Origin: Halomonas sp. 54_146
GTDB taxonomy: Bacteria; Pseudomonadota; Gammaproteobacteria; Pseudomonadales; Halomonadaceae
Direction of reading: 5' to 3'
Length of the DNA: 64,000 nt
NCBI RefSeq assembly: GCF_001507855.1
Contig: NZ_LGEN01000003.1
Span: 1-64,000, forward strand
The position numbers were made by a program, and so were the translations under genes. The notes under the pieces are model-generated. The model was not told the origin of the DNA. It worked only from the letters and a program-made list of their open reading frames with translations, and did no database searches. Of the stretch, positions 3,509-63,440 are shown piece after piece (position 1 is the first letter of the stretch; every line of letters begins with the position of its first letter).

Positions 3509-4978
3509 ATGACGAGCGATAAACCGACGAGTGATAAACCCAAGCACACCACAACGGATGCGGGCATACCGGTCACCAGCGACGAACACTCTCTTACGAT
3601 AGGCCCCAACGGGCCCATTCTGCTTAACGATCATTACTTGATTGAGCAGATGGCGAACTTCAACCGTGAACGCATTCCTGAGCGCCAGCCCCATGCCAAA
3701 GGCGGCGGCGGCTTCGGGCGTTTTGAAGTTACTCACGACGTCAGCCAATACACCAAAGCGGCGGTCTTTCAGCCCGGCACGGTTACCGAAACGCTCATGC
3801 GTTTTTCCACCGTAGCCGGTGAGCGAGGCAGCCCTGACACCTGGCGTGATCCGCGCGGGTTTTCGATCAAGTTCTACACCACAGAAGGCAACTTCGACAT
3901 GGTGGGGAACAACACGCCGGTATTTTTTGTACGTGATCCGATGAAGTTTCAGCACTTTATACGCTCGCAAAAGCGTCGTGCGGATACCAACCTGCGCGAT
4001 CATGACATGCAGTGGGATTTCTGGACGCTGTCGCCCGAGTCCGCTCATCAAGTGGCTTGGCTGATGGGCGACCGGGGTATTCCGAAAACCTGGCGTCATA
4101 TGAACGGCTACTCTAGCCATACCTATATGTGGATCAACGCAGAAGGCGAGCGGTTTTGGGTGAAGTACCACTTTAAAACCGACCAGGGAATTGATTTCCT
4201 CACTCAAGAGGAAGCGGACAAAATGGCCGGTACGGATGCCGATTACCATACCCGTGACCTCTACCATGCCCTCAAGAATGGCGATCACCCTAGCTGGACA
4301 TTGAAAGTGCAGATCATGCCCTTCGATGAAGCCAAAACGTACCGCTATAACCCCTTCGATTTAACCAAGGTGTGGCCCCATGCAGATTACCCGCTGATTG
4401 AAGTGGGTAAGCTCATGCTGGATCGTAACCCGACGGATTATCACACCGAGATCGAGCAGGCAGCATTTGAGCCCAACAACATGGTGCCAGGTACCGGTTT
4501 AAGCCCCGACAAAATGCTGCTGGCGCGTGGATTCTCGTATTCCGATGCCCATCGCGCACGGCTTGGTGTGAACTATCGACAGATCCCCGTCAACTCGCCT
4601 AAATCACCGGTGCACAGCTACTCCAAAGACGGCGCTATGCGCATGCACAATGTGACCGATCCTGTTTATGCGCCCAACTCGAAAGGTGGGCCATCAGCGG
4701 ATGCCGAGCGCTACCCAATAGATAACACGTGGGAAGTCAGCGGCGATTTTGTGCGCACTGCCTACACCCTGCGCCGCGATGACGACGATTGGGGCCAAGC
4801 CCATACGCTGGTGCGAGAAGTAATGGACGACGCCCAGCGCGACCGCTTGGTGTCCAACGTTATCGGCCACCTTTCGGATGGCGTCACTGATCCGGTGCTT
4901 GAGCGTGCGTTTGAGTATTGGCGCAATATCGACCAAGAAGTGGGTGACCGCATTGCCCAAGGCGTGAAGGGCGGTTAA
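3509..4978 (+). CDS. haem catalase, small-subunit monofunctional type
   Basis: A 489-residue catalase that breaks down hydrogen peroxide in the cytoplasm. Essential residues are all present: distal His62 in [12 protein letters not shown], Asn135 in VGNNTPVFF, and the proximal haem ligand Tyr344 in [14 protein letters not shown]. Length fits the small-subunit clade, with no C-terminal flavodoxin-like domain. The start is supported by TGGAGGAATAACG just before the ATG. The first codons carry a 15-bp tandem duplication (3512-3541), giving [10 protein letters not shown], which is outside the conserved fold. Its stop overlaps the end of convergent dusA by 4 bases. Confidence 0.96.
3512..3541 (+). 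repeat. 15-bp tandem duplication at the catalase start
   Basis: ACGAGCGATAAACCG is followed directly by ACGAGTGATAAACCC. The unit is a multiple of three and adds five residues (TSDKP) to the disordered N-terminus. Confidence 0.9.
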
Positions 4979-6018
4979 AGCGTGTCTTGAGCTTCTGGCT
5001 CGCGCACTAAACTTAAGGCTTCATCAAATAGGCGCAATCCTGCGCCTTCTTTATGCGCGTGTTCTGACAAATGACGCCGAAAACGCCTGCCGCCAGGGCA
5101 ACCCTGAAACAAGCCCAGCAGGTGGCGGGTAATGTGATTCAGCTTGGCGCCTTCATCTAAGCGCTGCTGAATGTAGGGGCGAAACGCCTTTGCTGCCTCT
5201 AAACGGCTCGCCGCTGGGCCTGTCTCGCCAAACAGCAGCTCATCAACGCCGGCTAGCAGCCACGGGTTTTGGTAAGCCTCTCGCCCCACCATTACGCTAT
5301 CCACATGGGTAAGCTGCTTTTGGCACTCGGCAAGCGTTTTAATCCCGCCGTTAATGCCGATGTGTAGCTCAGGACGGCTCTGCTTCAAACGATGCACACG
5401 GGGGTAGTTTAGCGGCGGCACATCGCGGTTCTGCTTAGGCGACAAACCCTGCAGCCACGCCTTGCGCGCGTGAACGGTAAATACTTCGCAGCCTGCGTCG
5501 GCCACAATAGCGATAAACCGCTCTAGATCGGCGTCTTCATCCTGGTCATCAATGCCAATACGGCATTTCACCGTGACCGGAATAGACACCGTTGCCTGCA
5601 TGGCACGCACAGCCTCGGCCACTTTTTCGGGGTAGCCCATCAAGCACGCGCCGATCATATTGTTCTGCACCCGGTCGCTGGGGCAACCCACGTTCAGGTT
5701 GACCTCGTCGTAGCCCCACGCCTCGGCAATCGCCGCGCATTCAGCCAACTCACCGGCATCGCTGCCACCTAACTGCAGTGCCAGCGGGTGCTCTACCTCG
5801 TTATAGCCCAAAAAGCGCTCACGGGGCGTTCCGTGCAAAATCGCACCGGTAGTGACCATCTCGGTATACAGCAGCGCCCTCTTGGTTAATGTGCGTGCAA
5901 ATGCTCTGTAGTCTCTGGTCGTCCAGTCCATCATAGGCGCTACGGAGAAAGTTCTATCCAGCGCCGGGCGGGCAATGCCAGACTTCATGCGGGTTTGCGC
6001 GGTTGTGGTATCATTCAT
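4975..6018 (-). CDS. dusA: tRNA-dihydrouridine(20/20a) synthase DusA
   Basis: A 347-residue FMN-dependent enzyme that reduces uridine to dihydrouridine in the D-loop of tRNAs. The N-terminus [17 protein letters not shown] and the active-site cysteine segment [14 protein letters not shown] are diagnostic of the DusA subfamily; GINGGIKTL and [13 protein letters not shown] follow as in the TIM barrel. C-terminal helical tRNA-binding part present. The leader contains a 14-bp repeat array (6047-6116), so regulation by upstream spacing is possible. The start has no good ribosome site; an internal ATG at 5988 is an alternative. Confidence 0.95.
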
Positions 6019-6046
6019 AACTGTTCATATTTACAGTGGTTAGGCC

Positions 6047-6116
6047 ACGTTTTTAGCAATACGTTTTTAGCAATACGGTTTTAGCAGCACGTTTTTAGCA
6101 ATACTTTTTAACAAAT
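6047..6116. repeat. 14-bp tandem repeat array, about 5 copies
   Basis: ACGTTTTTAGCAAT occurs at 6047, 6061 and 6089 as identical copies; 6075 and 6103 are diverged copies. It lies in the leader of dusA (minus strand), downstream of the permease gene. Confidence 0.93.
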
Positions 6117-6262
6117 TAGGTGTCACAAATTTGACGCTTTCATTTGCCATATTTTGGGGCAGGGGCGGCAACGATTGTGCAGTACCCAAAAAGGGCGGCA
6201 GTTTCGCATAAACAGCCAAGCATCGCATTATATGAAAGCGTTGGTTATCTAACGTCCGGGCT

Positions 6263-7075
6263 TTACGCATTAAACACCGTATACACCATCTGCAATGCGA
6301 GCCCCATCAGCATAAAAGCGAATACCCGTTTGAGTAGTTTGACGGGTAGCCTGTGAGCTAGCTTCGCGCCTATGGGGGCGGTAAGAATGCTGAAAGGTGC
6401 CATAAGCAGTAGCGCGGGTAGGTAAACGTAGCCTAGTGCCGCGCTTGGTAGGCCTTGGGTAGGCCAGCCGTTGATAATGTAGCCAAGCGCCCCGGCGACG
6501 GCGATAGGCAGGCCAATGGCCGCTGATGTGCCTATCGCGCGGGGAAGCTTGACGTTGCACCAGGTCAGAAAGGGCACGGTGAGAGAGCCACCGCCAATCG
6601 CAACCAGTGCGGAAATGCCGCCTATGCCAAGACCCACACCGCTTATACCGACAGGGCTTGGTAAGCCGCGGCTCGGTTTGGGTTTGATGTTTGCTAGCAT
6701 CTGCAGTGACATTAAGACCATGAAGCAGGCAAAGAAAATAGCTAGGCCGCGGGTGGGGATAAGTGCCGCGATAAACGTTGCCAAAAAAGTGCCGATGAGT
6801 ATGCCAGGGGTAATAAAACGCACGATGTCCCAGCGCACGGCTCCGTGGCGGTGGTGGGAAAGCAGGCTGGCGGAAGAAGCGGGAATGATAGCTGCCATTG
6901 CAGTACCCAAGGCTAAGTGAGCAAGATGCTCGTGAGGCACGCCTTGAAGCACGAAAAGGGCGGTTAGAATCGGCACCATAATGCCACCACCACCAATACC
7001 CAATAAGCCTGCCATAAGCCCAACAAAACCGCCTAACGCTATATAGGCCAACCACCAAATGATATCCAAAGCCAT
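6263..7075 (-). CDS. sulfite exporter TauE/SafE family permease
   Basis: A 270-residue integral membrane protein of the TauE/SafE (DUF81) family, with about eight hydrophobic segments in two repeats. Each half contains the family glycine-rich signature: GLMAGLLGIGGGGIMVPIL near residue 20 and ISALVAIGGGSLTVPFLTW in the second half. Such proteins export sulfite, sulfoacetate or related organic anions; the substrate here cannot be told from sequence. Start supported by TTTTAGGAGCA before ATG. It is followed by 244 bases, including the 14-bp repeat array, before dusA. Confidence 0.88.
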   Translation of the reverse strand: MALDIIWWLAYIALGGFVGLMAGLLGIGGGGIMVPILTALFVLQGVPHEHLAHLALGTAMAAIIPASSASLLSHHRHGAVRWDIVRFITPGILIGTFLATFIAALIPTRGLAIFFACFMVLMSLQMLANIKPKPSRGLPSPVGISGVGLGIGGISALVAIGGGSLTVPFLTWCNVKLPRAIGTSAAIGLPIAVAGALGYIINGWPTQGLPSAALGYVYLPALLLMAPFSILTAPIGAKLAHRLPVKLLKRVFAFMLMGLALQMVYTVFNA

Positions 7076-7170
7076 TGCTCCTAAAATTTATCGCTCGTTA
7101 AGCGCATTGTACCTGAAGCAAGGCTGTCGGCGGTGGTAAGCTGCAGGTCAGGTAATATTTTGGAGTTTGT

Positions 7171-7800
7171 ATGCGCAATGTAATAAGTAGTGCTGGCGTG
7201 TTGATGGTGTTCGTTGTGCTGCTGGTGGGCTGTGGTGAAACGGAAGAACGGCCGAGTGAATCGGTGTCAACCGTAGAACAAACATCAGCCCCTGAACCGA
7301 CAGTGGCCGAGGGGGATGTTGCTGAGGCGGACGTTGCTGAGGCGGACGTTGCTGAGACGGAAGAGATAACGCCGCTAGTCGTTGAGATATCTGCGCATGT
7401 GTCGCTGCGCAGCGACCGGCGCTTAATGGTGGAGGGCGAAAGCAACCTGCCAGATGGCACCCAGATACGGATTATTGTCGAGCGCGAAATCAGCCGAGTA
7501 CGGTGGCAGGCACGCACGCAGGTAGAAGATGGAGTGTTTACAGCGGGGCCTTTTGGTTCGGGCAGCGGCTTGCCGGATGGCGGCTACGATGTGCGTGTGG
7601 AAGTTTCTGAAGGCAGCGTTCAGCCAAAAGCCGTGCAGGCACGTATTGGCCACGAGGGCCAGCACCTGGCAGGAGAGCTGGTAAGCCAATCCCGCCATGG
7701 GCTGGGCCAGGTGGCCACCTACTCACGGCGTTTCTTGGTGGGGAGTGAGCCAAGGCGAACGCGTGACCAGGTGGAGGTTCTAGAGAGTCCGGGGAGGTAG
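7171..7800 (+). CDS. hypothetical lipoprotein with a short acidic repeat
   Basis: A 209-residue predicted lipoprotein: a hydrophobic signal ends in the lipobox LVGC, putting the acylated cysteine at residue 21. Residues 22-75 are an acidic, Glu/Ala/Val-rich linker containing a 15-bp tandem repeat (DVAEA, three copies). The rest (about 80-180) reads like a beta-sandwich domain (LRSDRRLMVEGESNLPDGTQIRIIV, then DGGYDVRVEVSEG). I do not recognise a named family. It ends 5 bases before the convergent XRE gene. The variable linker suggests a tether between membrane and domain. Confidence 0.72.
   Translation: MRNVISSAGVLMVFVVLLVGCGETEERPSESVSTVEQTSAPEPTVAEGDVAEADVAEADVAETEEITPLVVEISAHVSLRSDRRLMVEGESNLPDGTQIRIIVEREISRVRWQARTQVEDGVFTAGPFGSGSGLPDGGYDVRVEVSEGSVQPKAVQARIGHEGQHLAGELVSQSRHGLGQVATYSRRFLVGSEPRRTRDQVEVLESPGR
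7315..7359 (+). repeat. 15-bp in-frame tandem repeat, 3 copies
   Basis: Units beginning at 7315, 7330 and 7345 follow GACGTTGCTGAGGCG with single changes; they encode DVAEA/DVAEA/DVAET in the lipoprotein linker. Confidence 0.92.
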
Positions 7801-7805
7801 ACGCT

Positions 7806-8330
7806 TTAGGCAGGATGCCAATGGGCTAGCAGTACTGCATGAATATCGGTGTCGCTTGGGGCTTTTGCGAAGTGCTCAATGACGAAGCGATCGTCGCGCT
7901 GCACAATGTAGTGCCCCGCTTTGTGGAACACCTGGGTCGGGCCAAGTAACAGTAAATCGCCAGCGCTAACCGGAGAAAAATCTGTATCTGGGCCTGGTGT
8001 TGCCATGACACACGGTGCTTTCCAGTCAATGTTCAGCGGCAGATGGCTAGGCACTTTGATAGTGGTTGCTTGTACCTTTTCCCAGGGGAGGGGGCCGGTG
8101 TGAGACAACGTTAACAGCTCAGGAGCGCTATCACCTTCTAATAGGGTGGCCAGGGAGCAGTCGAGAGCGTCCGCGAGCGCAACAAGGCGTTCGTGACCGA
8201 TCTGCTTGATTGCCCCAGATTCCCAATAGGAAATAGTGACATCTGACACGCCTACTTTACGCGCAAGGGCAGCCTTATTGAGCTTGGCCCTAAGCCGCAG
8301 TTGCTTGATACGTGAGCCTAGCGATTCCAT
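7806..8330 (-). CDS. XRE-family regulator with an S24/LexA-like C-terminal domain
   Basis: A 174-residue protein with an N-terminal Cro/CI helix-turn-helix at about residues 5-60 (IKQLRLRAKLNKAALARKVGVSDVT, then ISYWESG). The C-terminal part from residue 90 resembles the beta-fold of S24 peptidase-like repressors (FSPVSAGDLLLLGPTQV, HYIVQRDDRFVIEHF), but I see no Ser-Met or Lys of the self-cleaving dyad, so it is probably a non-cleaving dimerisation or sensor domain. Not in an obvious prophage. It is preceded by 288 bases of non-coding DNA shared with divergent gltX. Confidence 0.8.
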   Translation of the reverse strand: MESLGSRIKQLRLRAKLNKAALARKVGVSDVTISYWESGAIKQIGHERLVALADALDCSLATLLEGDSAPELLTLSHTGPLPWEKVQATTIKVPSHLPLNIDWKAPCVMATPGPDTDFSPVSAGDLLLLGPTQVFHKAGHYIVQRDDRFVIEHFAKAPSDTDIHAVLLAHWHPA

Positions 8331-10100: not shown

Positions 10101-10121
10101 CCGCGATTGATGTGGTGCTGA

Positions 10122-12333: not shown

Positions 12334-12577
12334 GCTGGCCTCCTTTCGAATTCGGGTTGGGACGTAAAGTCATTGCTGCGCATGCCGCGCCGGCGAAAAG
12401 GCTTGCCTACTATAAAAGTGTGCGACATTTTGTCAATTAGCCTAAGCGCTAGGCATAGGTTGTGCAAATATTATTGCTATGAGTAGTTTTTGTATAATAT
12501 AAAAAAGCCTACAATATAATGAGGTGCCAAAAGCTGAGCAGCAGATAAGTAAGATGCGTCATAGCGCTTGTGACATA

Positions 12578-12628
12578 AGGCTTGTGCAAAAGGCTTATGA
12601 AAAAAGGCTTATGAAAAAAGGCTTATGA
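12578..12628. repeat. 13-14-bp tandem repeat, about 4 copies
   Basis: AGGCTTATGAAAAA starts at 12591, 12605 and 12619, preceded by a diverged copy (AGGCTTGTGCAAA) at 12578. Confidence 0.92.
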
Positions 12629-12728
12629 ATCTGCTCATCGATTGTCACTATAACCATGCTGCAGCGCAAAATCGACTCGGAGTAGGGCATTTTTCTTGCA
12701 CCATAGTCGATTTAGGGCTGCGTTCGGT

Positions 12729-16309: not shown

Positions 16310-16379
16310 ACCGTATGGCTAAGACCGTATGATTAAGACCGTACGGCTAAGATAGTAAAGCTAATATAGTAAATGTGGC
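16310..16379. repeat. 14-bp tandem repeat, 4-5 copies
   Basis: ACCGTATGGCTAAG at 16310, ACCGTATGATTAAG at 16324, ACCGTACGGCTAAG at 16338, then diverged copies at 16352 and 16366. Confidence 0.92.
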
Positions 16380-16385: not shown

Positions 16386-16430
16386 TGCTAGATAACGAAT
16401 TGCCAGATGACAAATTGCTAGACGAACAGG
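16386..16430. repeat. 15-bp tandem repeat, 3 copies
   Basis: TGCTAGATAACGAAT at 16386, TGCCAGATGACAAAT at 16401 and TGCTAGACGAACAGG at 16416, directly after a different 14-bp array. Confidence 0.85.
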
Positions 16431-22682: not shown

Positions 22683-22766
22683 CCAGTGCTTTTAAGACCG
22701 TTCTTGTAAGGCAGTTCTTGTAAGGCAGTTCTTGTAAGACAGTTCTTGTAAGAAAGTGCTTAAAAG
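22683..22766. repeat. 14-bp tandem repeat array, 6 copies
   Basis: Copies begin at 22683, 22697, 22711, 22725, 22739 and 22753; GCAGTTCTTGTAAG is the commonest form. The outer copies are more diverged (CCAGTGCTTTTAAG, AAAGTGCTTAAAAG). It ends 46 bases before the sucC start. Confidence 0.95.
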
Positions 22767-22812
22767 AAAACGGGTCATCGTTCGAGTCACATGCAACCAA
22801 TGGCATGAATCG

Positions 22813-24877: not shown

Positions 24878-24907
24878 AAGGGCACCCCGAGGGGTGCCCT
24901 TATTTAT
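24878..24907. terminator. terminator after sucCD
   Basis: AAGGGCACCCC pairs with GGGGTGCCCTT almost without loop, followed by ATTTATTT. It ends the TCA cluster. Confidence 0.9.
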
Positions 24908-24918
24908 TTCTGCTGTAT

Positions 24919-24943
24919 GCATTTGTGCTATGTGCATTTGTGC
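24919..24943. repeat. 15-bp tandem duplication at the flippase stop
   Basis: GCATTTGTGC occurs at 24919 and 24934, period 15, on both sides of the stop codon (24928-24930) of the minus-strand gene. Confidence 0.8.
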
Positions 24944-27813: not shown

Positions 27814-29076
27814 ATGATCGATGCCACGATGACAAAGCGAATGGAAGAAGCAACGCGGCTAACCCGCGCGGGGAAACTGCACGAGGCTATGGCCTTGCTT
27901 CAGGGCGGCGTGCCCGAAGCGAGAAGCGCGGCAACACCTAATACACCTTATCAATCATACCAGGGCGGCAATACCTTCGACGGAACCTGCGAAGTCATTG
28001 ACGGAACCTGCGAGGTCATCGACGAAGAAGCCACAGTATCGAAGCCAGATCCTGCTGAAGCGCCAACGGGAGCATTTTCACCCGACGATATTAAGGTACC
28101 TGCCGCATGGCGGGAAAAGTGGATGAAGTTTCGTGGCGGCATGGCGCATTTCGAGCAAGCTCAACCCGAGCAGGCGCGGAGCGCTGTCGAGGAGCCACAG
28201 CCTGGCGCGTTCACTGCCGGTCGTTTTACCAACCAAATCGGCACGCGTGATTACAAGCTGTATATCCCCACTGGCTATAGCGGGCAAGCGCTGCCGCTGG
28301 TGGTTATGCTGCATGGCTGCACGCAAAACCCTGATGATTTTGCCGCCGGAACCGAGATGAACCGGCTGGCCGAAGAGCAACTGTGCTGCGTGCTCTACCC
28401 AGCCCAGCCGATGACCGCCAATACCTCGAAATGCTGGAACTGGTTTAAAGCCGAAGACCAGCAGCGCGAAGGCGGTGAGCCGGCGATTCTGGCGGGCATG
28501 ACCCGCCAGATCATCGACACCCACGGCCTTGATGAAAATCGGGTCTATGTGGCAGGGCTTTCGGCAGGCGCGGCCATGGCGACCACTCTGGCGATGACCT
28601 ACCCGGACCTGTTTGCGGCCGTGGGCGTGCACTCCGGGTTGCCCCACGGCGTGGCCCAGAGTCTTCCCGATGCGCTGGGTGCAATGCAAGGGGGTACGGG
28701 GCCTCTTGGCGGTGGTAAACCGAAAGGAGCCGGTTGGGCATCAGAAGTACCGGCGATTATCTTTCATGGCGACCGTGACACCACCGTGCACCCCAGCAAT
28801 GCGGAACGTGTTGCTGCTCAGTACCGCGCATCGGGTGCTTCCAATGTGGGCAAAGCCGGGGCGAAGGTAGAGCAGGGAAAGGTGGCTAATGGCCATGCCT
28901 ATACGCGTACCACGCATCACGATGAAAAAGGCAAACCACGCCTGGAGCAGTGGCGCATTCAAGGGGCGGGTCATGCCTGGTCGGGTGGCAGCAGCAAAGG
29001 CAGCTATACCGACCCGAAAGGCCCCGATGCCACGAAAGAAATGCTGCGCTTCTTCTTGCTTCATCAGCAGGCTTGA
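27814..29076 (+). CDS. PHB depolymerase family esterase
   Basis: A 420-residue alpha/beta hydrolase of the polyhydroxybutyrate depolymerase (Esterase_phd) family. The N-terminal 140 residues are a variable, possibly helical extension without signal peptide, so the enzyme is likely intracellular. The catalytic domain shows the oxyanion-side VVMLHGCTQNPDDFAAGTEMN, the nucleophile Ser250 in GLSAGAAMA, an aspartate after FHGDRD and His387 in GAGHAWSGG. It may act on stored polyester or short esters. I chose ATG 27814 (AAGGA eight bases upstream) over TTG 27808. A 21-bp duplication gives DGTCEVI twice. Confidence 0.85.
   Translation: MIDATMTKRMEEATRLTRAGKLHEAMALLQGGVPEARSAATPNTPYQSYQGGNTFDGTCEVIDGTCEVIDEEATVSKPDPAEAPTGAFSPDDIKVPAAWREKWMKFRGGMAHFEQAQPEQARSAVEEPQPGAFTAGRFTNQIGTRDYKLYIPTGYSGQALPLVVMLHGCTQNPDDFAAGTEMNRLAEEQLCCVLYPAQPMTANTSKCWNWFKAEDQQREGGEPAILAGMTRQIIDTHGLDENRVYVAGLSAGAAMATTLAMTYPDLFAAVGVHSGLPHGVAQSLPDALGAMQGGTGPLGGGKPKGAGWASEVPAIIFHGDRDTTVHPSNAERVAAQYRASGASNVGKAGAKVEQGKVANGHAYTRTTHHDEKGKPRLEQWRIQGAGHAWSGGSSKGSYTDPKGPDATKEMLRFFLLHQQA
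27979..28020 (+). repeat. 21-bp in-frame tandem duplication
   Basis: Two copies starting at 27979 and 28000 with few differences; they encode DGTCEVI twice in the variable N-terminal part of the esterase. Confidence 0.92.
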
Positions 29077-42135: not shown

Positions 42136-42164
42136 CGTTGTGTTAGTTAAGTTTTAAAGCAATA

Positions 42165-42213
42165 GGCATAAAAAAGGTGACCCGCAGGAGGCATAAAAAA
42201 GGTGACCCGCAGG
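42165..42213. repeat. 25-bp tandem duplication of a terminator arm
   Basis: Units start at 42165 and 42190: ggcat, A6, GGTGACCCGCAGG. Only the second has the matching GGTCACC arm, so the first is an idle copy of half a terminator. Confidence 0.93.
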
Positions 42214-42916: not shown

Positions 42917-43198
42917 ATGACCATTTTCTTGATTTGGGTTGTTGCCTTTGTCCTGATTGCTTATTTTGCTAATAAGCGTTGGGAAAGCGGCTTTAGCCAA
43001 GGGCTAGACAAAATGTTGCCTAGCGTGATGAAAAGCCACGGCGACAACCGCTATATGTGGGTAGCTGCCGTTGCAGTGCTGGGCGCGACGACATTGATCC
43101 GCCCCGTTGATGTGCTGCTGGTGGTCATTTTGCTGGCATTGATTGGGTTGGCGGTGTTCAAACTGGCCAACTGGGCGAGCAGCAAAGCCACTCATTAA
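42917..43198 (+). CDS. small membrane protein, unknown function
   Basis: 93 residues: an N-terminal helix (MTIFLIWVVAFVLIAYFA), a basic loop, then two close helices (WVAAVAVLGATTLI and VLLVVILLALIGLAVF). No family recognised. CTGGAGTCCGTT before ATG and a following terminator support a real gene. A 13-bp duplication copies its stop codon downstream. Confidence 0.72.
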   Translation: MTIFLIWVVAFVLIAYFANKRWESGFSQGLDKMLPSVMKSHGDNRYMWVAAVAVLGATTLIRPVDVLLVVILLALIGLAVFKLANWASSKATH

Positions 43199-43211
43199 AG
43201 CGACTCATTAA
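43190..43211 (+). repeat. 13-bp tandem duplication containing a stop codon
   Basis: ACTCATTAA at 43190 (with the gene's TAA) and at 43203. Confidence 0.82.
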
Positions 43212-43230: not shown

Positions 43231-43268
43231 AAACAGCCCGGCCATGTTGATGGTCGGGCTGTTTTTTT
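43231..43268. terminator. terminator after the small membrane protein
   Basis: AACAGCCCG / CGGGCTGTT stem with an inner CCA/TGG, followed by T7. Confidence 0.92.
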
Positions 43269-43298
43269 ATGGTGTTACTTAATATTTCATGGTGTAAG

Positions 43299-43769
43299 TT
43301 AATAGGGCGCAACGCTCATGCTGGCCCCGCTACCAATCAAGCGTACTCGCTGGCCGGCCTGGAACTGACGGTCTGCACGTTGAACAACGACAACATCGGT
43401 ACCGTCATCACGACGAATTTCCATTTCCAATGCGTTAACGCGGTTAGTCGCATCTTCAGCGGCCGTACCCGCTACTGCACCGCCTAGGGCACCTGCAACC
43501 GTTGCCAGCTGACGACCCGAGCCGCCGCCTACCTGATTGCCCAGAAGCCCACCGATAACCGCGCCACCACCGCTGCCTAACAGACCGCCTGCGCGGCTTT
43601 CAGCCTGAATCTGTACCGGACGAACCGCCACGATGGTGCCATAAGTGACGCTTTGCCCCGTTTGCGCTTGGCTGCCGCGATAAACATCGCCAGAGTAGCC
43701 AGCCGTGTTGGCGCAGCCTGCTAGCGTGAGAATACTTAGTGCGGCAACAGGTAAGAGAAGACGTTTCAT
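43299..43769 (-). CDS. SlyB-like outer membrane lipoprotein with glycine zipper
   Basis: 156 residues; lipobox LAGC gives acylated Cys19. The middle (about 60-105) is a glycine-zipper 2TM domain: GGLLGSGGGAVIGGLLGNQVGGGSG and VAGALGGAVAGTAAED. The tail (VVVVQRADRQFQAGQRVRLIGSG) is a small beta domain. This is the SlyB/Pcp family, which supports outer membrane integrity. GGAGGTTTTA before ATG. Confidence 0.9.
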   Translation of the reverse strand: MKRLLLPVAALSILTLAGCANTAGYSGDVYRGSQAQTGQSVTYGTIVAVRPVQIQAESRAGGLLGSGGGAVIGGLLGNQVGGGSGRQLATVAGALGGAVAGTAAEDATNRVNALEMEIRRDDGTDVVVVQRADRQFQAGQRVRLIGSGASMSVAPY

Positions 43770-44009: not shown

Positions 44010-44057
44010 TAACCAACAGGCAACCTGGCCAACAGGCAACCTAACCAACAGGCAATC
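44010..44057. repeat. 16-bp tandem repeat, 3 copies
   Basis: TAACCAACAGGCAACC at 44010, TGGCCAACAGGCAACC at 44026, TAACCAACAGGCAATC at 44042. Confidence 0.95.
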
Positions 44058-44089: not shown

Positions 44090-44117
44090 GATTTTACAAA
44101 GTGGATTTTACAAAGTG
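44090..44117. repeat. exact 14-bp tandem duplication
   Basis: GATTTTACAAAGTG at 44090 and 44104, identical, between aceA and its terminator. Confidence 0.95.
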
Positions 44118-45738: not shown

Positions 45739-45756
45739 GAGCTAACCCTCTTTTTT

Positions 45757-45804
45757 GGTCGTGATGGTGTTTGGACGTAGTAGTGTTTGGTCGTGATAAC
45801 GTTT
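45757..45804. repeat. 16-bp tandem repeat, 3 copies
   Basis: GGTCGTGATGGTGTTT at 45757, GGACGTAGTAGTGTTT at 45773, GGTCGTGATAACGTTT at 45789; about 20 bases upstream of the aceA start codon. Confidence 0.9.
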
Positions 45805-49949: not shown

Positions 49950-51091
49950 GCAGCAGCCTCCGTGGGTTTTTTCCAGGTAGCGCGGATAACGCCGCCGCCC
50001 AAGCAAATGTCGCCATCGTAAAGAACCAGCGATTGGCCAGGGGTGACCGCCCACTGCGGGTCGTCGAAGGTGACCTCTACACCGCCGTCGGGCAGCACGC
50101 GCATTTCGCAGCCACAGTCGCTTTGCCGGTAGCGGGTCTTGGCAGTAAAGCGGCCCTGTTGAACCGGCGGCTCGCCCGCTACCCAGTCCATGGCTTCTGT
50201 CGCCAATATGTCCGAGAAGAGCAGCGGGTCATGCTTACCCTGCACGGCGATCAAAACGTTCCGATCAAGGTCTTTGGCCGCCACGTACCAGGGCTCTTCT
50301 GAGTAGTTGGCAAGCCCGCCAATGCCCAGACCCTGGCGCTGGCCTAAGGTGTAGTACATCAACCCCATATGTTCGCCAATTACATCGCCATCGGGCGTTT
50401 CGATGTTGCCAGGCTGTGCGGGTAGGTATTGCTGCAGGAAATCGCGAAAACGCCGCTCGCCGATAAAGCAGATACCGGTGGAGTCTTTTTTCTTGGCGGT
50501 AATTAACCCGTGCTGTTCAGCTAAGGCACGCACGGCGGGTTTTTCCAGCTCACCCACGGGGAACAGCGTGCGGGCAATGGCGGCTTCTGGCACCGCGTGC
50601 AGGAAGTAGCTTTGATCTTTGTTGCCATCCAGGCCTTTTAGCAGGCGCGGGCGTCCTTCACGCACGCCTTGCCGCACATAGTGGCCGGTAGCGATTTTCT
50701 CAGCCCCCAGCATTTCGGCGTACTCAAGGAACACCTTAAACTTGATTTCCCGGTTGCACAGAATGTCCGGGTTGGGCGTTCGGCCGGCCTTGTATTCGGC
50801 TAAAAAGTGCTCGAAGACGTTATCCCAATACTCTGCGGCAAAGTTGGCGGTATGCAGTTTGATACCCAGCTTTTCGCAGACGGCTTCGGCGTCGGCGAGA
50901 TCTTCTTTAGCTGTGCAGTACTCGGTGCCGTCGTCTTCATCCCAGTTTTTCATAAACAAACCTTCCACCTCATAGCCTTGCTGCATGAGGAGAAGGGCAG
51001 AAACGGACGAATCGACGCCGCCAGACATCCCGACAATCACTTTGCCGTTAGTGGAGGGCTTAGCGGTGGATGACATAGCAGTGGATGGCAT
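49946..51091 (-). CDS. mnmA: tRNA 2-thiouridylase
   Basis: Thiolates U34 of tRNA-Lys, -Glu and -Gln. 381 residues. PP-loop [13 protein letters not shown]; the nucleophile cysteine is in [13 protein letters not shown] and the persulfide cysteine in [12 protein letters not shown]. The N-terminus [14 protein letters not shown] is a duplicated sequence with three possible ATG starts (51097, 51091, 51076); I choose 51091 because AGGA lies five bases upstream. Couples to hflD (ATGA). Confidence 0.95.
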
Positions 51092-51095
51092 AGGC
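51066..51095. repeat. 15-bp tandem duplication covering the mnmA start
   Basis: GTGGATGACATAGCA at 51066 and GTGGATGGCATAGGC at 51081; on the minus strand each copy contains an ATG. Confidence 0.85.
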
Positions 51096-52249: not shown

Positions 52250-52526
52250 GATCTCTTTAGGGGTTGCCCTTGATTTGTCGACAATCTCTCATGTGATTAA
52301 AATGCAGCGCTGGTATACTTTTCAAAACGGTCTCAATAACCAGTTCAGCAATCAGCGCAACAGCCAACGATCGATCATTGAGAAAGCTAGAAAAGCTAGA
52401 TTAGAAAAGCTAGATAAAGCCAAATAAAACGGCCCCGCCTGCTTCGCGGCATGGTCTCTCGTTGAATAAGTCGCGTCGCTCAGGGTCTTTATAATCACAG
52501 CGATAGAAAAAAGAGGTTAACGCAAA
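52250..52526. other. rluE-icd intergenic region
   Basis: 277 bases without a supported gene. AAAGCTAG recurs at 52383, 52392 and 52406 (periods 9 and 14), a degenerate short tandem repeat. Otherwise nothing recognised. Confidence 0.55.
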
Positions 52527-54764
52527 ATGTCGAAAACGCCGAAGATCATTTACACGCTCACCGACGAGGCACCTGCGCTCGCAACATATTCTTTGCTACC
52601 GATTATTGACGCCTTCACCGACGCTGCGGGTATCGAAGTGGAAACCCGGGATATCTCCCTGGCGGCGCGCGTTCTTTCTTTATTTCCCGACTATTTGACC
52701 GAAGAACAGCGTATTGAAGACCACCTGGCCGAGCTGGGTGCACTGGCCAAGGTTCCCGAAGCCAATATTATCAAGTTACCGAATATCAGTGCTTCCATGC
52801 CGCAGCTGCGCGCCGTCATCAAAGAGCTGCAGGAGCAGGGCTACGCACTGCCTGAATACCCTGACGACCCAAGCAGCGATGAAGAAAAAGATATCAAAGC
52901 GCGCTACGACAAAGTGAAAGGCAGCGCGGTTAACCCCGTATTGCGTGAAGGTAACTCCGACCGCCGTGCACCAAAGGCCGTCAAAGAGTACGCCCGCAAG
53001 TACCCGCATTCCATGGGGGAGTGGAGTCAGGCATCGCGTACCCACGTTTCGCACATGCACAGTGGCGACTTCTACCACGGCGAGAAGTCGATCACCCTGG
53101 ACCGCGCCCGCAACGTCAAGATGGAGCTGATCACTGCCAGCGGTGAAACCAAAGTGCTCAAGCCGCGGGTCGAACTGCTGGAAGGCGAAATCATCGACAG
53201 CATGTTTATGAGCAAGAAAGCACTGCTGGACTTTTACGAGCGTGAAATCGAGGATGCCCGCAAGACCGGCGTGATGTTCTCACTGCACGTAAAAGCAACG
53301 ATGATGAAAGTCTCGCACCCGATTGTGTTCGGTCACTGCGTTAAAATTTTCTACAAAGACGCTTTTGAGAAGCACGGTGAGCTGTTCAAAGAGCTGGGTG
53401 TCGATGTTAATAACGGTATCGCTAACCTTTACGACAAGATTGCGACCTTGCCAGAATCCCAGCGTGATGAAGTCATCAGTGACCTGCATGCCTGCCATGA
53501 CAAGCGCCCTGAACTGGCGATGGTTGATTCGGCGCGCGGCATCACCAACTTCCACTCGCCCAGCGATGTGATTGTCGATGCTTCGATGCCCGCGATGATT
53601 CGTGCCGGCGGCAAGATGTACGGTGCTGACGGTCGTCTCAAAGACGTCAAGGCAGTGATGCCAGAGTCGACATTCGCGCGTATTTACCAGGAAATGATCA
53701 ATTTCTGTAAATGGCACGGTGCGTTTGATCCGGCCACGATGGGCACCGTGCCCAACGTTGGTTTGATGGCGCAAAAAGCCGAAGAGTACGGCTCTCACGA
53801 CAAAACCTTTGAAATTTCGGAAGACGGTGTTGCTAACATCACCGACCTGGACACGGGCGAAGTGCTGCTGTCGCAAAACGTGGAGCAGGGCGATATTTGG
53901 CGGATGTGCCAGGTTAAAGACGCACCGATTCGCGACTGGGTGAAGTTGGCCGTGGAGCGCTGCCGTGATTCGGGTATGCCGACAGTATTCTGGCTCGACC
54001 CTTACCGCCCGCACGAGAACGAGCTGATCAAAAAGGTCAAAACGTACCTCAAGGATCACGACACCGAAGGGCTTGAAATCCATATCATGTCCCAGGTGCG
54101 GGCAATGCGTTACACCCTGGAGCGTGTGATTCGTGGCCTGGATACTATCTCGGTGACGGGCAACATTCTCCGTGATTACCTGACCGACCTCTTCCCAATT
54201 CTTGAGCTGGGCACCAGTGCCAAAATGCTGTCTATCGTTCCCTTGATGGATGGCGGCGGCCTGTTTGAAACGGGTGCCGGTGGTTCCGCACCGAAGCACG
54301 TTCAGCAGCTGCTGGAAGAGAACCACCTGCGTTGGGACAGCCTGGGCGAGTTTTTGGCGCTGGTGGCCTCTTTGGAACACCTTGCCAAACGCTTTGGCAA
54401 CGACCGTGCTAAGCTGCTGGCGAAAGCGCTGGATGAAGCGAACGGCAAGTTCCTTGAAAGCAACAAATCACCGTCACGCAAAGTGGGTGAGCTAGACAAC
54501 CGCGGCAGCCATTTCTATTTAGCGCTTTACTGGGCTGAAGCCTTGGCGGCTCAGGATCAAGACGCGGATCTGAAAGCACGCTTTGCCCGCCTTGCCGAAA
54601 CGCTGAAAGCCAATGAAACTAAAATCATTGACGAGCTTAATAGCGTTCAAGGGCAGCCCGTTGACCTTAAAGGCTATTATCACCCCAGCGGAGAGTTGGC
54701 CGGCCAGGTCATGCGTCCGAGCAAAACGCTCAACGAAGCGCTTGCTATGGTGGCAAACGGCTAA
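52527..54764 (+). CDS. icd: NADP-dependent isocitrate dehydrogenase, monomeric type
   Basis: Oxidises isocitrate to 2-oxoglutarate with NADP+. At 745 residues it is the monomeric type (IDH-II), unrelated in overall architecture to the 416-residue dimeric enzyme of E. coli. Typical blocks: [51 protein letters not shown] (catalytic lysine), and [14 protein letters not shown]. It competes with aceA for isocitrate. It lies where E. coli has its dimeric icd next to rluE. A 15-bp repeat starts at its last codon. Confidence 0.97.
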
Positions 54765-54834
54765 GGTTTTAAAAGCTAAGGTTTTAAAAGCTAAGGTTTC
54801 AAAAACCAAGGTTTCATAAACCAACGTTTCACAA
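54760..54834 (+). repeat. 15-bp tandem repeat, 5 copies, starting at the icd stop
   Basis: GCTAAGGTTTTAAAA at 54760 (with the TAA stop) and 54775, GCTAAGGTTTCAAAA at 54790, then diverged copies at 54805 and 54820. Confidence 0.95.
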
Positions 54835-55073: not shown

Positions 55074-55508
55074 ATGTCCAACCTAGAGAGTTCATCTTTG
55101 GCTACTTTTTCCATGCAAGCAGGAATGACGCGGCCGATTATGTCTAGTAACACTGTGTCTAGTAAAACTGTGTCTAGTAAAACGGTGTCTAGTCACACCA
55201 TGCCCGATGAAGAGGGTGATCTGGCGGTGCAGTCAGCAGAGCCAGCGCTGGCGCAACCGCCGCTTTACAAAGTGGTGCTTCACAATGACGATTACACGCC
55301 GATGGAATTTGTCATTGAAGTGCTGCAAGATTTTTTCAACATGGACAGCGAGACGGCCGTTCAGGTCATGCTCGCGGTACATACTCAAGGAAAGGGCACC
55401 TGTGGTGTGTTTACGCGTGATATAGCGGAAACCAAAAGCTACCAGGTAAACGAGTACGCCCGGGAGTGTGAGCATCCGTTGATAAGTGATATTGAGGCCG
55501 CCAATTAA
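55074..55508 (+). CDS. clpS: ATP-dependent Clp protease adaptor ClpS
   Basis: Recognises proteins with N-terminal Leu, Phe, Tyr or Trp and hands them to ClpA. The conserved core begins at [23 protein letters not shown]; it has the N-degron pocket residues (NDDYTPM) and [19 protein letters not shown]. The core needs only about 100 residues, so the first 42 codons are extra. They include a 15-bp repeat, [20 protein letters not shown]. Starts at 55065, 55074, 55140 or 55200 are all possible; none has a good ribosome site, and 55200 gives a typical ClpS length. Upstream of clpA, as usual. Confidence 0.9.
55140..55199 (+). repeat. 15-bp tandem repeat, 4 copies, at the clpS start
   Basis: Copies at 55140, 55155, 55170 and 55185 follow GTGTCTAGTAAAACT; the first begins with ATG and the others with GTG, so each carries an in-frame start codon. 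Confidence 0.95.
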
Positions 55509-57924: not shown

Positions 57925-57949
57925 AAAGGGCGCTAAGCCACTCACTAGC

Positions 57950-58015: not shown

Positions 58016-58016
58016 C

Positions 58017-58065
58017 GTTTACAGCGACAGGGTGTTTACAGCAGCTTATGTTTACAGCAGCTTAG
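58017..58065. repeat. 16-17-bp tandem repeat containing the infA stop
   Basis: GTTTACAGC starts copies at 58017, 58034 and 58050; the last two share GTTTACAGCAGCTTA, where TTA is the infA stop on the minus strand. Confidence 0.92.
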
Positions 58066-59189: not shown

Positions 59190-59222
59190 GGTTCTCCTCC
59201 TTGGTAAAACAGCATGATGTTG

Positions 59223-59972
59223 TCAATATGCGTTACGCTCAGCGGCAATCGCATTCAGCCAGGGTGACGCGGGCACAGACGGTGGTTGCTCGTCTGATAA
59301 GGCTATCGTAAATGCCTTATCAGGCAACCAATTATTAAGATAGTTGATGAATGACGCACGAGCGACTGTAATAGCGCCCAGGCTTTCGAGGTGAGGGGTA
59401 TGCATTTGGCAGTCGATGAGTTTACCGCCATACTCGCGCATTGCCCTGGCTAGGTGTGCTAAAGCCACTTTGGAGGCATCCGGGGTGCGGGAAAACATCG
59501 ATTCACCGAAGAACACCGGCCCCATGGCTAGGCCATAGAGGCCGCCGACTAATTGCCCGTCTTGGTGAACTTCAATGCTGTGGGCAATGCCTTGGGTGTG
59601 CAAAAGGCAGTAGGCGTCGTGCATCTCAGCGGTAATCCACGTGCCTGTTTCTTCGCCCCTTGGGGCGGCGCAGGCGTGAATCACCTGGTCGAAGTGTTGA
59701 TCCAGCGTGACATGAAAGCCACCATGGCGTAATCGTTTGGTTAAGCTACGACGCTGCTTAAATTGCTCAGGTAGGAGTATCATGCGCGGGTCTGGGCTCC
59801 ACCACAAAATAGGGTCGTCGTCGCTGTACCACGGAAAAATGCCGCGTCGATAAGCCTCGACCAGCCAAGCAGGGGATAGCTCGCCGCCAGCAGCCAGCAG
59901 GCCGTTGGGTGAATCCAGTGCTGTATCAGTAGAAGGAAAGCTAGGATGTGGCGAGGAAAGCCAAGGTAGCAT
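59223..59972 (-). CDS. aat: leucyl/phenylalanyl-tRNA--protein transferase
   Basis: Adds Leu or Phe to proteins with N-terminal Lys or Arg, the entry to ClpS/ClpA degradation. 249 residues. Signatures: FPWYSDDDPILWWSPDPRMIL and GESMFSRTPDASKVALAHLAR. The ATG at 59972 has GGAG six bases before it; a TTG at 59984 would add four residues. It is divergent from ftsK. Confidence 0.96.
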   Translation of the reverse strand: MLPWLSSPHPSFPSTDTALDSPNGLLAAGGELSPAWLVEAYRRGIFPWYSDDDPILWWSPDPRMILLPEQFKQRRSLTKRLRHGGFHVTLDQHFDQVIHACAAPRGEETGTWITAEMHDAYCLLHTQGIAHSIEVHQDGQLVGGLYGLAMGPVFFGESMFSRTPDASKVALAHLARAMREYGGKLIDCQMHTPHLESLGAITVARASFINYLNNWLPDKAFTIALSDEQPPSVPASPWLNAIAAERNAY

Positions 59973-60118
59973 TGCGTGCTCCAATTGTTGCTACGTTCTT
60001 TACGACGTCCTTGCGCTGAGCGCTTAGCGACAGGCGCTGTGACGGCGAAAGGATGCTCGGTATGATGCAAACTCGCAAGTGGATTAAAGACGCCATTAAG
60101 GTGTAAAGGGAGAGTCGC

Positions 60119-63100
60119 TTGAAAGTGAATAAAGCAGTCAACAAGCGAACGCAGCGTAACGCGCGTCAAACACCATCATCGACTTCTTCAGCGCGCGTTA
60201 ATGCCGCGAAAGACAAAGCTCGTCGTTTTGGGCTGCGTCTGCAAGGCTCGGTGCGCGAAGGCGTGGTCGTGGTACTGCTGGCGCTGTGTGTTTTCTTATT
60301 ATTAGCACTATTTAGTTATCATCCATCTGACCCCGGCTGGTCATACCAGGGGCCTGAAACCGATGTTCGTAACTGGATGGGGCAAGTAGGTGCCTGGTTA
60401 GCCGATGTGCTCTATTCACTGTTAGGTGCCAGTGCGCTGTGGTGGCCAGGTATGTTTGGCTTTGCCGCCTGGTGGCTTATTCGCTCGCGCCAAGTACGTT
60501 TTGAGCTAGACCCGGTGGCCATCGCCGTGCACGCGGGTGGCTTATTGCTGCTTATTTTTGGCACTACCATGCTGGGGGCGCTGCATTTCTATCACCCTGA
60601 AAGCATGTTGCCCTATGCCTCTGGCGGTATTTTAGGCGAAGGCTTGGTCGGTGCGCTTAGGCCGTTGGTGGGCAGCGGCGGCGTGGGGTTAATCGCTGCG
60701 GCGTTAATTTTAAGCGGCTTTCCGCTGTTTAGCGGTATGTCATGGCTGCAGGTGGCGGATGAACTCGGCAAACGGGTATGTCGCCTGGGTAACTGGTTAT
60801 CGGCACGTAGGGAATCGCGCCGCCTGCGTGCTGCCCAGCGTGCGGCTGCTAAACCTGCGCCCGCGCCGAAGCCTCACGTTAAGCCACAGGTAGCGCCTGA
60901 CGTTAAACCTGAAGCCGCACCCGCTGAGGTGAAGCCCGCTGCAGAACCGGTAAGCAAAAGCCCCAGTGGTCGCGAACGCCGTGAGCCAGGCTTTTCTGTG
61001 CCGTTTTCCACCAGCGCTTCAGAGAACGGTTCTTCCGAGATCAGTACTTCAGAAAATAGCCCTTCAAATAACCGCGAGACCACGGATACCTCTATTCCCT
61101 GGGAAGCCGCAGCGTTTTCAAGCAATAAGCATGTTCCCGCTCAAACAGCCATAGCCGCCACGGAATCGCCGTTGAACGTGGCTGAAGAAGCTGAATATGA
61201 GACTGAATATAAAGCGCCTCAATCTTTCGAGCCCCAATCTTTCGAGCCCATAGCACCGCGTGAAAATGCGTTTGTGCAGGCTGAAGCAGCGTCACCTGTC
61301 GTTGAGGAAAGTGTTGAGGAACGGCTTGAAGAGCGGTCTGAAGAACGCATTCAAGAACGCACTCAAGAACAGGTTAAGCCGCCGATTAATGCGCAAGCCG
61401 ATGTGCAAAGGGAAGAAGCGGCTTCTTTCCCGCTGCGTGCGTCGCGTCAAGAACAAGCCCCGGTGCCTGCACGACAACCTGAACGTGTCGCTGAGGTGGT
61501 TCCAGAGCCCGTCTGGGGCGATGAGGAAATGAGCGACGATACGGGCTACGAGGATGAGGGCGACGAGGACACGGGCGACAAAAATGTGAGTGATAAGCCC
61601 TCAGGCAATGAGAATGTGCGCAGCGAGTCGCCTGCCGTCGCAGCGCCTACGCCGCCCGCGTCACCTGTGCAGCCCGCAGCGCGCCAAGAGCCCACCTTCG
61701 CGCCCGATGAAAGCACGCCAGAGGCCGACGAAGGCCCCGCGCTATGGACCGTTGAGCATTTGCAGAGCCAGCGGCCTGCCTTTGAAACCCTTGACGAGCC
61801 CGAGGGCGATGTGCCGAGCCTGCAGCTATTAACGCCGGCAGAGCCGCACCAGCCCAATTACAGCGACGAGCAGCTGGCTGATATGGCCGAGCTGCTTGAA
61901 GTGCGGCTGCGCGAGTACGGTGTTAAAGCAGAAGTGGTGGATACCTGGCCTGGGCCGGTGATTACCCGCTTTGAGATCAAGCCTGCCGCGGGCGTCAAAG
62001 TGTCTAAAATCAGTAACCTTGCCAAAGACCTGGCGCGCTCACTGATGGTGAAAAGCGTGCGGGTGGTAGAGGTGATTCCAGGGCGCCCCACGGTGGGGAT
62101 TGAAATACCTAACCCCAATCGTGCCATGATCCGCCTGCGCGAAGTTATCGATTCCGACCGTTATCAGCAGGAGACCTCGCCGCTGACCATGGCGCTAGGC
62201 CAGGACATTGGCGGCAGCCCGGTGGTGGCTAACCTGGGCAAGATGCCCCACCTGTTAGTGGCGGGCACTACCGGTTCGGGTAAGTCGGTGGGCGTTAACG
62301 CCATGCTGATCTCGATGCTGCTCAAGGCCAAGCCTAACGAGCTAAAGCTGATCATGGTTGACCCGAAAATGTTGGAGCTGTCGGTGTATGACGGCATCCC
62401 GCACCTGCTGGCACCCGTGGTTACTGATATGAAAGAAGCGGCTAACAGCCTGCGTTGGTGCGTTGCAGAGATGGAGCGCCGCTACAAGCTGATGGCCGCC
62501 ATGGGGGTGCGTAATATCGCCGGCTTCAATGGCCGCTTGGATGAAGCCGAGCGCGCCGGTGCCCAAGTGGCCGACCCGCTTTGGGAACCGCAGCCGTGGG
62601 AGATTCATCAGCCGCATCCGGTGCTTGAGAAGCTGCCCTACATCGTCGTGGTGATCGACGAATTTGCCGATATGTTTATGATCGTCGGCAAAAAAGTCGA
62701 AGAGCTGATTGCACGCCTTGCGCAAAAGGCGCGCGCCGCGGGTATCCATTTAATTCTGGCAACCCAGCGCCCCTCGGTCGATGTGGTAACGGGCCTGATC
62801 AAAGCCAACATCCCGTCACGGATGGCGTTTCAGGTCTCCTCAAGAATTGATTCGCGCACCATTCTTGACCAGGGCGGCGCTGAAAGCCTGCTGGGGCATG
62901 GCGATATGCTGTATCTGCCCGCAGGCTCTGGGCCGCCTAACCGCATCCACGGTGCCTTTGTGGATGATGACGAAGTGCACCGGGTGGTCGATGATTGGAA
63001 GCGCCGCGGCGCACCGGAGTATATCGAAGAGATTCTCTCTGGCGGTGTATCGGCGGATGCCTTAACCGGCCTTGAGGCCGACGGTGCCGATGGCGACGAT

Positions 63101-63307
63101 GCCGAGCAGGACGCGCTTTACGATGAAGCTATTCAGTTTGTCACTGAAACGCGCAAAGCCTCGATTTCTGCCGTGCAGCGCCGCTTTAAGATCGGCTATA
63201 ACCGGGCGGCACGTTTGGTTGAGGCAATGGAAGGTGCCGGTGTAGTAACGGCGATGGGGTCGAATGGCGCACGTGAAGTACTTGCGCCACCCCCAGTGGG
63301 CCACTAA
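60119..63307 (+). CDS. ftsK: DNA translocase FtsK
   Basis: Septal DNA pump that helps chromosome dimer resolution. 1062 residues. The N-terminal membrane domain has about four helices (residues 45-210, from [21 protein letters not shown]). A disordered, Pro/Glu/Gln-rich linker (about 240-570) contains small repeats, [10 protein letters not shown] and a 12-bp EER-type repeat. The motor has Walker [11 protein letters not shown] near residue 716 and [18 protein letters not shown]. The C-terminal winged-helix gamma domain (from about 995) would bind KOPS sites. TTG start with GGGAG six bases upstream; GTG 60125 is possible. Confidence 0.96.
61220..61249 (+). repeat. exact 15-bp tandem duplication in the ftsK linker
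   Basis: CAATCTTTCGAGCCC twice, at 61220 and 61235; encodes QSFEP twice. Confidence 0.95.
61316..61375 (+). repeat. 12-bp tandem repeat in the ftsK linker, 5 copies
   Basis: Units from 61316 read GAGGAACGGCTT, GAAGAGCGGTCT, GAAGAACGCATT, CAAGAACGCACT, CAAGAACAGGTT; charged four-residue repeat. Confidence 0.88.
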
Positions 63308-63349
63308 CCGCTTGGTGTTAGTCACAATTATGCAATAAGCGTGGAAGTC

Positions 63350-63380
63350 GCGCCGCTGGTGAAACCCAGCGGCGCTTTTT
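63350..63380 (+). terminator. terminator after ftsK
   Basis: GCGCCGCTGG / CCAGCGGCGC perfect 10-bp stem, 6-base loop, then TTTTT. Confidence 0.95.
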
Positions 63381-63390
63381 ACGTCTGAGA

Positions 63391-63440
63391 ACGTAGCTGA
63401 GAAAAAAGTACTTGGGAAAGAACGTACTTGAGAAAGCATC
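63391..63440. repeat. 15-16-bp diverged tandem repeat before lolA
   Basis: ACGTAGCTGAGAAAAA, AGTACTTGGGAAAGA, ACGTACTTGAGAAAG and a partial copy follow each other from 63391. Confidence 0.7.

Follow-up and report, generated by a model that had tools for sequence, protein, structure and literature searches.

What could duplicate short, differing segments of DNA over and over in one bacterial lineage? The question is raised by a stretch of Halomonas sp. 54_146 (Vreelandella/Halomonas; 3,564,665 bp in 90 contigs), namely the first 64,000 nucleotides of contig NZ_LGEN01000003.1 (C52, 155,224 bp), which is the whole of the DNA that we call the window. A first-pass annotation had reported short tandem duplications throughout the window. 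Here we show that these arrays are real and that their excess is genome-wide and strongest in 54_146 among the genomes sampled. Probably they are not a functional element but the products of a mutational process, raised in this lineage, that duplicates AT-rich segments of 13 to 20 bp in tandem.

Results

We searched the window with Tandem Repeats Finder (score cut-off 30 or more), which returned 55 rows, 40 of them with a period of 12 to 25 and two of these overlapping at 54760. All 11 sites that the annotation had named matched a row to within 16 bases. Ten of the matching rows are 6047-6114, 12566-12629, 16310-16352, 16386-16422, 22684-22761, 44010-44055, 44090-44117, 54760-54814, 55141-55193, and 58033-58064 (the site placed earlier at 58017); the eleventh, 45754-45798, has 75% matches and was missed by the stricter scorer described below. 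In a full-unit test, which tolerated up to 15% mismatch per unit and took 20 block-wise dinucleotide shuffles as its null, periods 14, 15, and 16 gave 8, 8, and 3 sites compared to 0.35, 0.05, and 0.0 in the shuffles. Periods 10 and 11 together gave 3 sites compared to 2.15, and periods 17 to 60 gave 6 sites, two of which are doubles of period 14. The stricter scorer (match +1, mismatch -2, score 11 or more), which we used for all array densities, found 21 window arrays with a period of 12 or more, compared to none in one shuffle. By the list of open reading frames (ORFs), eight of these 21 lie in genes, with periods of 12, 15, or 21. All seven window arrays in Pfam-matched genes fall outside the matched domains, and an Rfam scan of the window matched two tRNAs only.

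To compare densities, we sampled 737,359 bp of 54_146 (the 64-kb window plus 673 kb of further sequence, in seven contig groups) and 1,597,934 bp from congeners (58 to 100 kb from each of 24 genomes, 20 of them represented by the orthologous region). Arrays were counted from period 12 upward, which excluded one array of period 10 or 11 in 54_146 and three in congeners. Genes were called by a simple codon-usage caller, and arrays straddling gene ends were counted as intergenic. We found 170 arrays in 54_146 and 118 in the congeners, a 3.1-fold difference in density (P = 1.3e-21), so that the excess over relatives for which the annotation had proposed a check is indeed present. All seven contig groups of 54_146 (16.6 to 32.8 arrays per 100 kb) lie above all 24 congeners (0 to 15 per 100 kb). 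Within the orthologous region, 54_146 carries 21 arrays in 64 kb and the 20 congeners carry 0 to 8 each in 58 to 60 kb (94 in 1,197,934 bp). Spacers and genes are raised alike, with densities per 100 kb of 102.5 versus 33.2 in intergenic DNA and 8.5 versus 2.5 in genic DNA. Most of the 54_146 arrays (117/170) are intergenic or overlap the end of a gene; they are fewer where the spacer separates divergent genes than in spacers elsewhere (15 of 111 arrays in 20.3 of 87.1 kb). Two copies are present in 110 of the 170 arrays and three or more in 60.

Beyond the congener sample, 11 named Vreelandella loci had an intergenic density of 12.4 per 100 kb and other Halomonadaceae one of 15.1. The value was 19.7 for six Oceanospirillales-type loci (three arrays only), 8.7 for 30 mostly Pseudomonas loci, and 2.5 for Escherichia coli K-12, where the stricter scorer found one array in 200 kb. 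Apart from E. coli, all of these loci cover the sdh-suc region alone, and the same places are thus counted repeatedly. The nearest named sucA loci, at 93-97% protein identity to 54_146, belong to Halomonas and Vreelandella. The branch of 54_146 in a sucA tree of 20 rows (7 of 27 candidate rows were dropped because the match was too short) measures 0.072 and is not unusually long. Branches of 0.11 and 0.13 belong to congeners G006 and G004, which carry 7.0 and 11.7 arrays per 100 kb.

The size spectrum of the arrays has a sharp lower edge. Exact intergenic copies in 54_146 numbered 1, 0, and 0 at periods 10, 11, and 12, compared to 4, 8, 3, 2, and 1 at periods 13 to 17, with a mode at 14 and single events at 19, 20, 25, and 26. 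The congeners gave 0, 2, and 1 at periods 10 to 12 and 8, 1, 3, 1, and 2 at periods 13 to 17. Pooled, this amounts to 12 copies at 13 bp, 9 at 14 bp, 6 at 15 bp, and 3 each at 16 and 17 bp, with 4 in all at 10 to 12 bp; shuffles yielded at most 0.4 at each listed period. Over periods 9 to 12, 54_146 has 2 exact copies compared to 0.6 in shuffles, and the 5 at period 8 (0.2 in shuffles) are runs of short words. With mismatches allowed, intergenic arrays of 54_146 numbered 3, 15, 27, 16, 12, 12, 11, 6, and 8 at periods 12 to 20, respectively, with 7 above 20. Although the scorer itself disfavors diverged copies at periods 12 and 13, the floor at 13 bp is independent of it, because the exact-copy counts show the same floor against shuffles. 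The range of 12 to 17 bp given in the annotation therefore captured a narrow class but not its limits, which run from 13 bp upward for exact intergenic copies and to about 20 bp with mismatches. This size class is not private to 54_146, since congeners show it too, about one-third as densely. Within genes, periods were multiples of three in 50 of 53 arrays over the 737 kb and in 32 of 33 congener arrays, which extends the in-frame rule noticed in the window.

We asked how the units are related to one another and to their surroundings. In an all-against-all comparison, 53 of 5,050 unit pairs scored 10 or more (rounded), compared to 12 in shuffles. The likeness arises partly between neighboring arrays and partly from A/T-rich words (AGCTA, TTTAAA, and ACAG among them). 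The statement that the units form no single dispersed repeat holds, and we reject a repetitive extragenic palindrome (REP) or miniature inverted-repeat transposable element (MITE) family given how rarely pairs are alike; the units are, however, not fully unrelated. As for a functional repeat family, the unit comparison and word enrichment left us with weak, partly A/T-rich sharing. Unit GC content is 0.395 over 90 intergenic arrays, compared to 0.492 for spacers and 0.48 for the arrays' own flanks. By eye, no border motif was apparent in 50 events of 54_146 and 44 others, which counts against a sequence-specific nuclease, and a tendency toward CTG/CAG at unit ends, suggested by a short list, was not upheld in the same events.

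At orthologous places, the array is often missing from relatives. For 19 of the 42 arrays on contig C52, both flanks could be aligned with those of one or more relatives. Clear-cut examples, in which the relatives shown have roughly one copy at most, are 3511 (+15), 27979 (+21), 6047, and 44090. At 22689, by comparison, a decayed array is common to relatives and 54_146 adds three 14-bp units. In the sdhB-sucA spacer, 54_146 has 14-bp units, and several relatives have 20-bp units from the same neighborhood; in the eight relatives listed with arrays upstream of sucA, the period is 20, 15, or 12. Copy number thus differs between 54_146 and its congeners at orthologous places such as 22689, 3511, and 27979, judged from one genome per species. 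The alignment of orthologous spacers that the annotation had called for revealed an array in 15 of 126 relatives' spacers where 54_146 has one and in 19 of 289 where it has none, a weak hot-spot effect in raw counts uncorrected for spacer length. In the sequences sampled, neither of the two outcomes that the annotation had named as refuting its idea was observed.

In 25 gapped alignments of 54_146 with a relative, each insertion being held to 70% identity over 20 bases on each side, insertions of 12 bp or more numbered 190 in 54_146 and 64 in relatives when counted pairwise, and 54_146 was ahead in 23 of the 25. Counted as distinct 60-bp bins, such insertions occupied 53 in 54_146 and 26 in all relatives together. 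Insertions of 4 to 11 bp were more even (54 versus 42). Tandem-like insertions, called at the 5% level against 100 shuffles per site, made up 36 of 51 loci of 54_146 at 12 to 45 bp compared to 6 of 26 at 4 to 11 bp. Some insertions, for example those at 28838 and 42232, are not visibly tandem.

To examine how arrays begin, we retained exact duplications without sign of a third copy, a single-event filter passed by 17 of 49 exact duplications in 54_146. These 17 events are 12 to 25 bp long with copies directly adjacent. No microhomology was present in 10 of the 17, compared to 9.4 expected for random ends. The births are a mixture: about half fit homology-free random ends, and a minority uses microhomology.

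Finally, we searched for candidate repair genes. Ku was absent from 54_146, and one genome of the 38 searched for it was positive (G002). PolA of 54_146 matches positions 1-890 of the 890 of its family profile with no stop, an observation of profile span that a point defect would escape. RecJ, the ExoI C-terminal domain, SbcC, UvrD, and the ExoVII large subunit match near-whole profiles without stops, the RecJ, SbcC, and UvrD matches being under the NCBI curated cut-off in all genomes searched, relatives included. On these matches we rejected loss of PolA, RecJ, ExoI, SbcC, UvrD, or the ExoVII large subunit as the cause. A short second PolA-type 5'-nuclease match occurs in none of 25 genus genomes, compared to 6 of 13 other-family genomes (one with stops).

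Discussion

Taken together, the arrays probably record a process of local tandem duplication that runs at a lower rate across the genus and about threefold higher in the lineage of 54_146. In such a process, a segment of 13 to 20 bp, preferably AT-rich, would first be duplicated in tandem; about half of the births that can be traced lack microhomology. This pattern is observed directly; the enzyme presumably behind it might act through two nicks on opposite strands 13 to 20 bp apart, followed by gap filling and sealing, or alternatively through a displaced strand of 13 to 20 bp followed by the same two steps. Slippage would then add units to existing copies, as the arrays with three or more copies suggest, and substitutions would make the copies differ, as they visibly do. 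In the end, genic units keep the frame, the seven window arrays in Pfam-matched genes lie clear of the matched domains, and divergent-gene spacers hold fewer arrays. The presence of the excess in all seven contig groups, its similar size in genes and spacers, and the frequent lack of the array in relatives support a repeated local process. The annotation's idea of one local mechanism with later drift accordingly stands as to repeated duplication and drift, but not as to a single mechanism, given births with and without microhomology and no causal gene.

Several observations weigh against this reading. Among the 17 filtered events, 4 have three or more matching bases, where about 1.1 are expected. 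In the comparison set, made up of the 24 congeners and the named loci L031-L079 (mostly Halomonadaceae, with neighbors), 19 of 51 duplications passed the filter; 7 of these 19 have no microhomology (10.4 expected), and another 7 share three or more bases, where chance predicts about 1.2. Unfiltered exact duplications of 54_146 lack microhomology in 11 of 38 cases compared to 20.8 expected, an excess of microhomology. Relatives' insertions are tandem-like too (23/53 at 12 to 45 bp; 3/42 at 4 to 11 bp), and an earlier, stricter tandem test, which was too strict, called 12 insertions of 54_146 and 7 of relatives tandem. The pairwise insertion counts are non-independent and unpolarized by an outgroup, and two comparisons did not favor 54_146 (0:1 with G009, 8:8 with G008). 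In genic array density, 54_146 is surpassed by the Pseudomonas loci (13.4 per 100 kb coding; 30 loci, one region). The congener sample is small, at 24 of the 81 other genomes in a genus set of 82. Lastly, no causal gene was found among Ku, PolA, RecJ, ExoI, SbcC, UvrD, and the ExoVII large subunit.

The microhomology just described also speaks for ordinary replication slippage as the sole cause, in which chance direct repeats 13 to 20 bp apart mispair and 54_146 simply slips more. Microhomology is above chance over all 38 exact events, matches of three or more bases are overrepresented in both filtered sets, and some arrays, such as that of the lpd-sucC spacer, expand older decayed repeats. 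Slippage should nevertheless favor short units, which are nearly lacking at periods 9 to 12 before the sharp start at 13, and 10 of the 17 filtered events offer no microhomology for mispairing. We therefore regard slippage alone as possible but doubtful.

Altered processing of Okazaki fragments and flaps, through the balance of the PolA 5'-nuclease, RNase H, and ligase, would seal in flaps of 13 to 20 nucleotides and copy them as duplications. AT-rich segments suit strand displacement, microhomology in part of the events would fit, and the 25 genus genomes searched lack the short second 5'-nuclease match found in some genomes of other families. That lack is, however, common to low-density congeners, PolA of 54_146 matches its whole profile without stops, and many events show no microhomology. 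On balance we consider this explanation rather unlikely.

Some mobile elements leave long target-site duplications whose lengths resemble 13 to 20 bp, and the arrays could in principle be footprints of such duplications after clean excision. We think this very unlikely, because the sizes spread over 13 to 20 bp with no fixed length, some arrays have 3 to 11 copies, no border motif was visible, and no direct repeat of at least 12 bases borders the one dispersed element examined. If staggered double-strand breaks were filled in and their ends then joined by Ku/LigD, homology-free duplications of stagger length would be expected, as in the 10 of 17 events, but with Ku in a single genome of 38 and 54_146 negative, classical Ku-based joining, as distinct from a Ku-independent joiner, is close to refuted. 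In the sole positive genome, two of the Ku-family matches at L243 and L244 lie about 0.3 kb apart. It is just as improbable that the arrays are protein-binding sites or regulatory RNAs kept by selection: their intergenic and gene-end locations and a few recurring A/T-rich words would fit, but units vary by place, arrays are rarer between divergent genes and raised equally within genes, orthologous spacers are mostly without them, and Rfam finds only the two tRNAs. An assembly artefact is the least credible of all, since, draft though the genome is, many copies differ by substitutions, flanks align to relatives, and the size class recurs, less densely, in congeners assembled as a single contig.

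The annotation knew of no described system that fits. In kind, the phenomenon is best seen as bacterial minisatellite birth in a strong form. Bacterial minisatellites, or variable-number tandem repeat (VNTR) loci, as used in multiple-locus VNTR analysis (MLVA) typing, likewise consist of short, mostly unrelated tandem units that are largely intergenic or in frame and vary in copy number between lineages, and the arrays of 54_146 are head-to-tail copies within the minisatellite unit range of about 9 to 100 bp. They differ in density (spacers carry about 100 arrays per 100 kb), in their narrow 13-to-20-bp class, in the many two-copy births, and in that about half of these lack microhomology. Short tandem duplications are a main class of insertions in eukaryote genomes, where an adjacent copy is likewise inserted, often without repeats at its ends; those, however, go down to one base, whereas the present class begins near 13 bp and is elevated in one lineage. 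In flap-endonuclease mutants (yeast RAD27, E. coli polA), insertions are also tandem copies of a short stretch, but they are flanked by short direct repeats, in contrast to the 10 of 17 filtered events that have none (though microhomology is in excess over all 38 exact events), and PolA looks intact here. What would exceed plain minisatellite birth is the combination of a 13-bp floor with births free of homology, which is seen in few events.

Tentatively, and as a speculation that we think more apt to fail than to hold, these features might amount to an undescribed signature: largely homology-free tandem duplication of 13 to 20 bp, with a hard 13-bp limit that reflects how much of an AT-rich segment a single DNA-processing enzyme covers as its footprint, low across Vreelandella and raised here by a heritable change, building much new spacer DNA and N-terminal peptide repeats such as those of ClpS. 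If the floor and the homology-free births hold, they would be the fingerprint of a specific replication or repair step, one not foreseen by standard models of slippage. The genus would then form a natural series, from low-rate species to the high-rate 54_146, for tracing the responsible gene. Spacers and disordered protein ends could, on this reasoning, grow by lineage-specific mutation bias rather than selection.

Individual arrays and minor observations

The arrays of the window are listed in Table 1.

Table 1. Short tandem arrays in the 64,000-nucleotide window of Halomonas sp. 54_146 (hairpins judged by eye)
Position	Strand	Unit and copies	Context	Relatives and remarks
3511..3540	+	15 bp x2.0	Catalase N-terminus, TSDKP doubled	One copy in two relatives shown; clean +15, without microhomology
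6047..6100	.	14 bp x3.9	Intergenic	G064, about one copy
7309..7361	+	15 bp x3.5	Within 209-amino-acid ORF without Pfam match	+30 bp versus 6 relatives
12588..12629	.	14 bp x3.0	Intergenic	
16310..16373	.	14 bp x4.6	Spacer upstream of sucA	Array in this spacer in 10/23 relatives
16386..16422	.	15 bp x2.5	Spacer upstream of sucA	One unit above 4 relatives
22689..22769	.	14 bp x5.8	Before sucC	Decayed form in most aligned relatives; +42 bp (3 units) versus 16/23
24906..24943	.	15 bp x2.5	Intergenic, after terminator-like hairpin	
27979..28024	+	21 bp x2.2	Before domain of Esterase_PHB-family gene	+21 versus 10 relatives
42164..42213	.	25 bp, exact duplication	Over left arm and loop of terminator-like hairpin	
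43184..43211	.	13 bp x2.2	End of small predicted gene	
43265..43304	.	20 bp x2.0	Adjoins terminator-like hairpin	
44013..44055	.	16 bp x2.7	Intergenic	+43 bp versus 7 relatives
44090..44117	.	14 bp, exact duplication		About one copy in relatives shown; without microhomology
51051..51093	-	15 bp x2.9	N-terminus of tRNA_Me_trans (MnmA-like) gene	G010 carries a longer array of its own here
52388..52415	.	14 bp, exact duplication		Without microhomology
54760..54831	.	15 bp x4.8	Begins at very end of ORF, rest intergenic	
55141..55193	+	15 bp x3.5	ClpS N-terminus, approximately VSSKT repeats	Absent from G010, sole relative aligned
58033..58064	.	16 bp, exact duplication		Without microhomology
61216..61249	+	15 bp x2.3	ftsK linker	
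61301..61344	+	12 bp x3.7	ftsK linker	
61341..61370	+	12 bp x2.5	ftsK linker	

The N-terminal tail of ClpS is about 60 bp (four 15-bp units) longer in 54_146 than in G010. The exact duplication at 42164-42213 leaves its spacer with an extra half of the terminator-like hairpin. Elsewhere, apparent filler between copies (contig C1, 79285) can be explained, reading by eye, if the upstream copy has drifted next to a probable ribosome-binding site.

Near 106.1 kb of contig C1 (L115:6136-6236) lies the dispersed element mentioned above, an intergenic element of about 100 bp with hairpin-like short inverted repeats by eye (the repeat finder reported none of 12 bases or more). Flanking direct repeats of 12 bases or more are absent, and shorter ones are possible. 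The element is dispersed in 54_146 and in all seven congeners searched, and the syntenic copy is reversed in G068, G017, and G064. The array with the most copies of any sampled, an 18-bp unit repeated 11.5 times, is found on contig C52 at 109881-110087 (L013).

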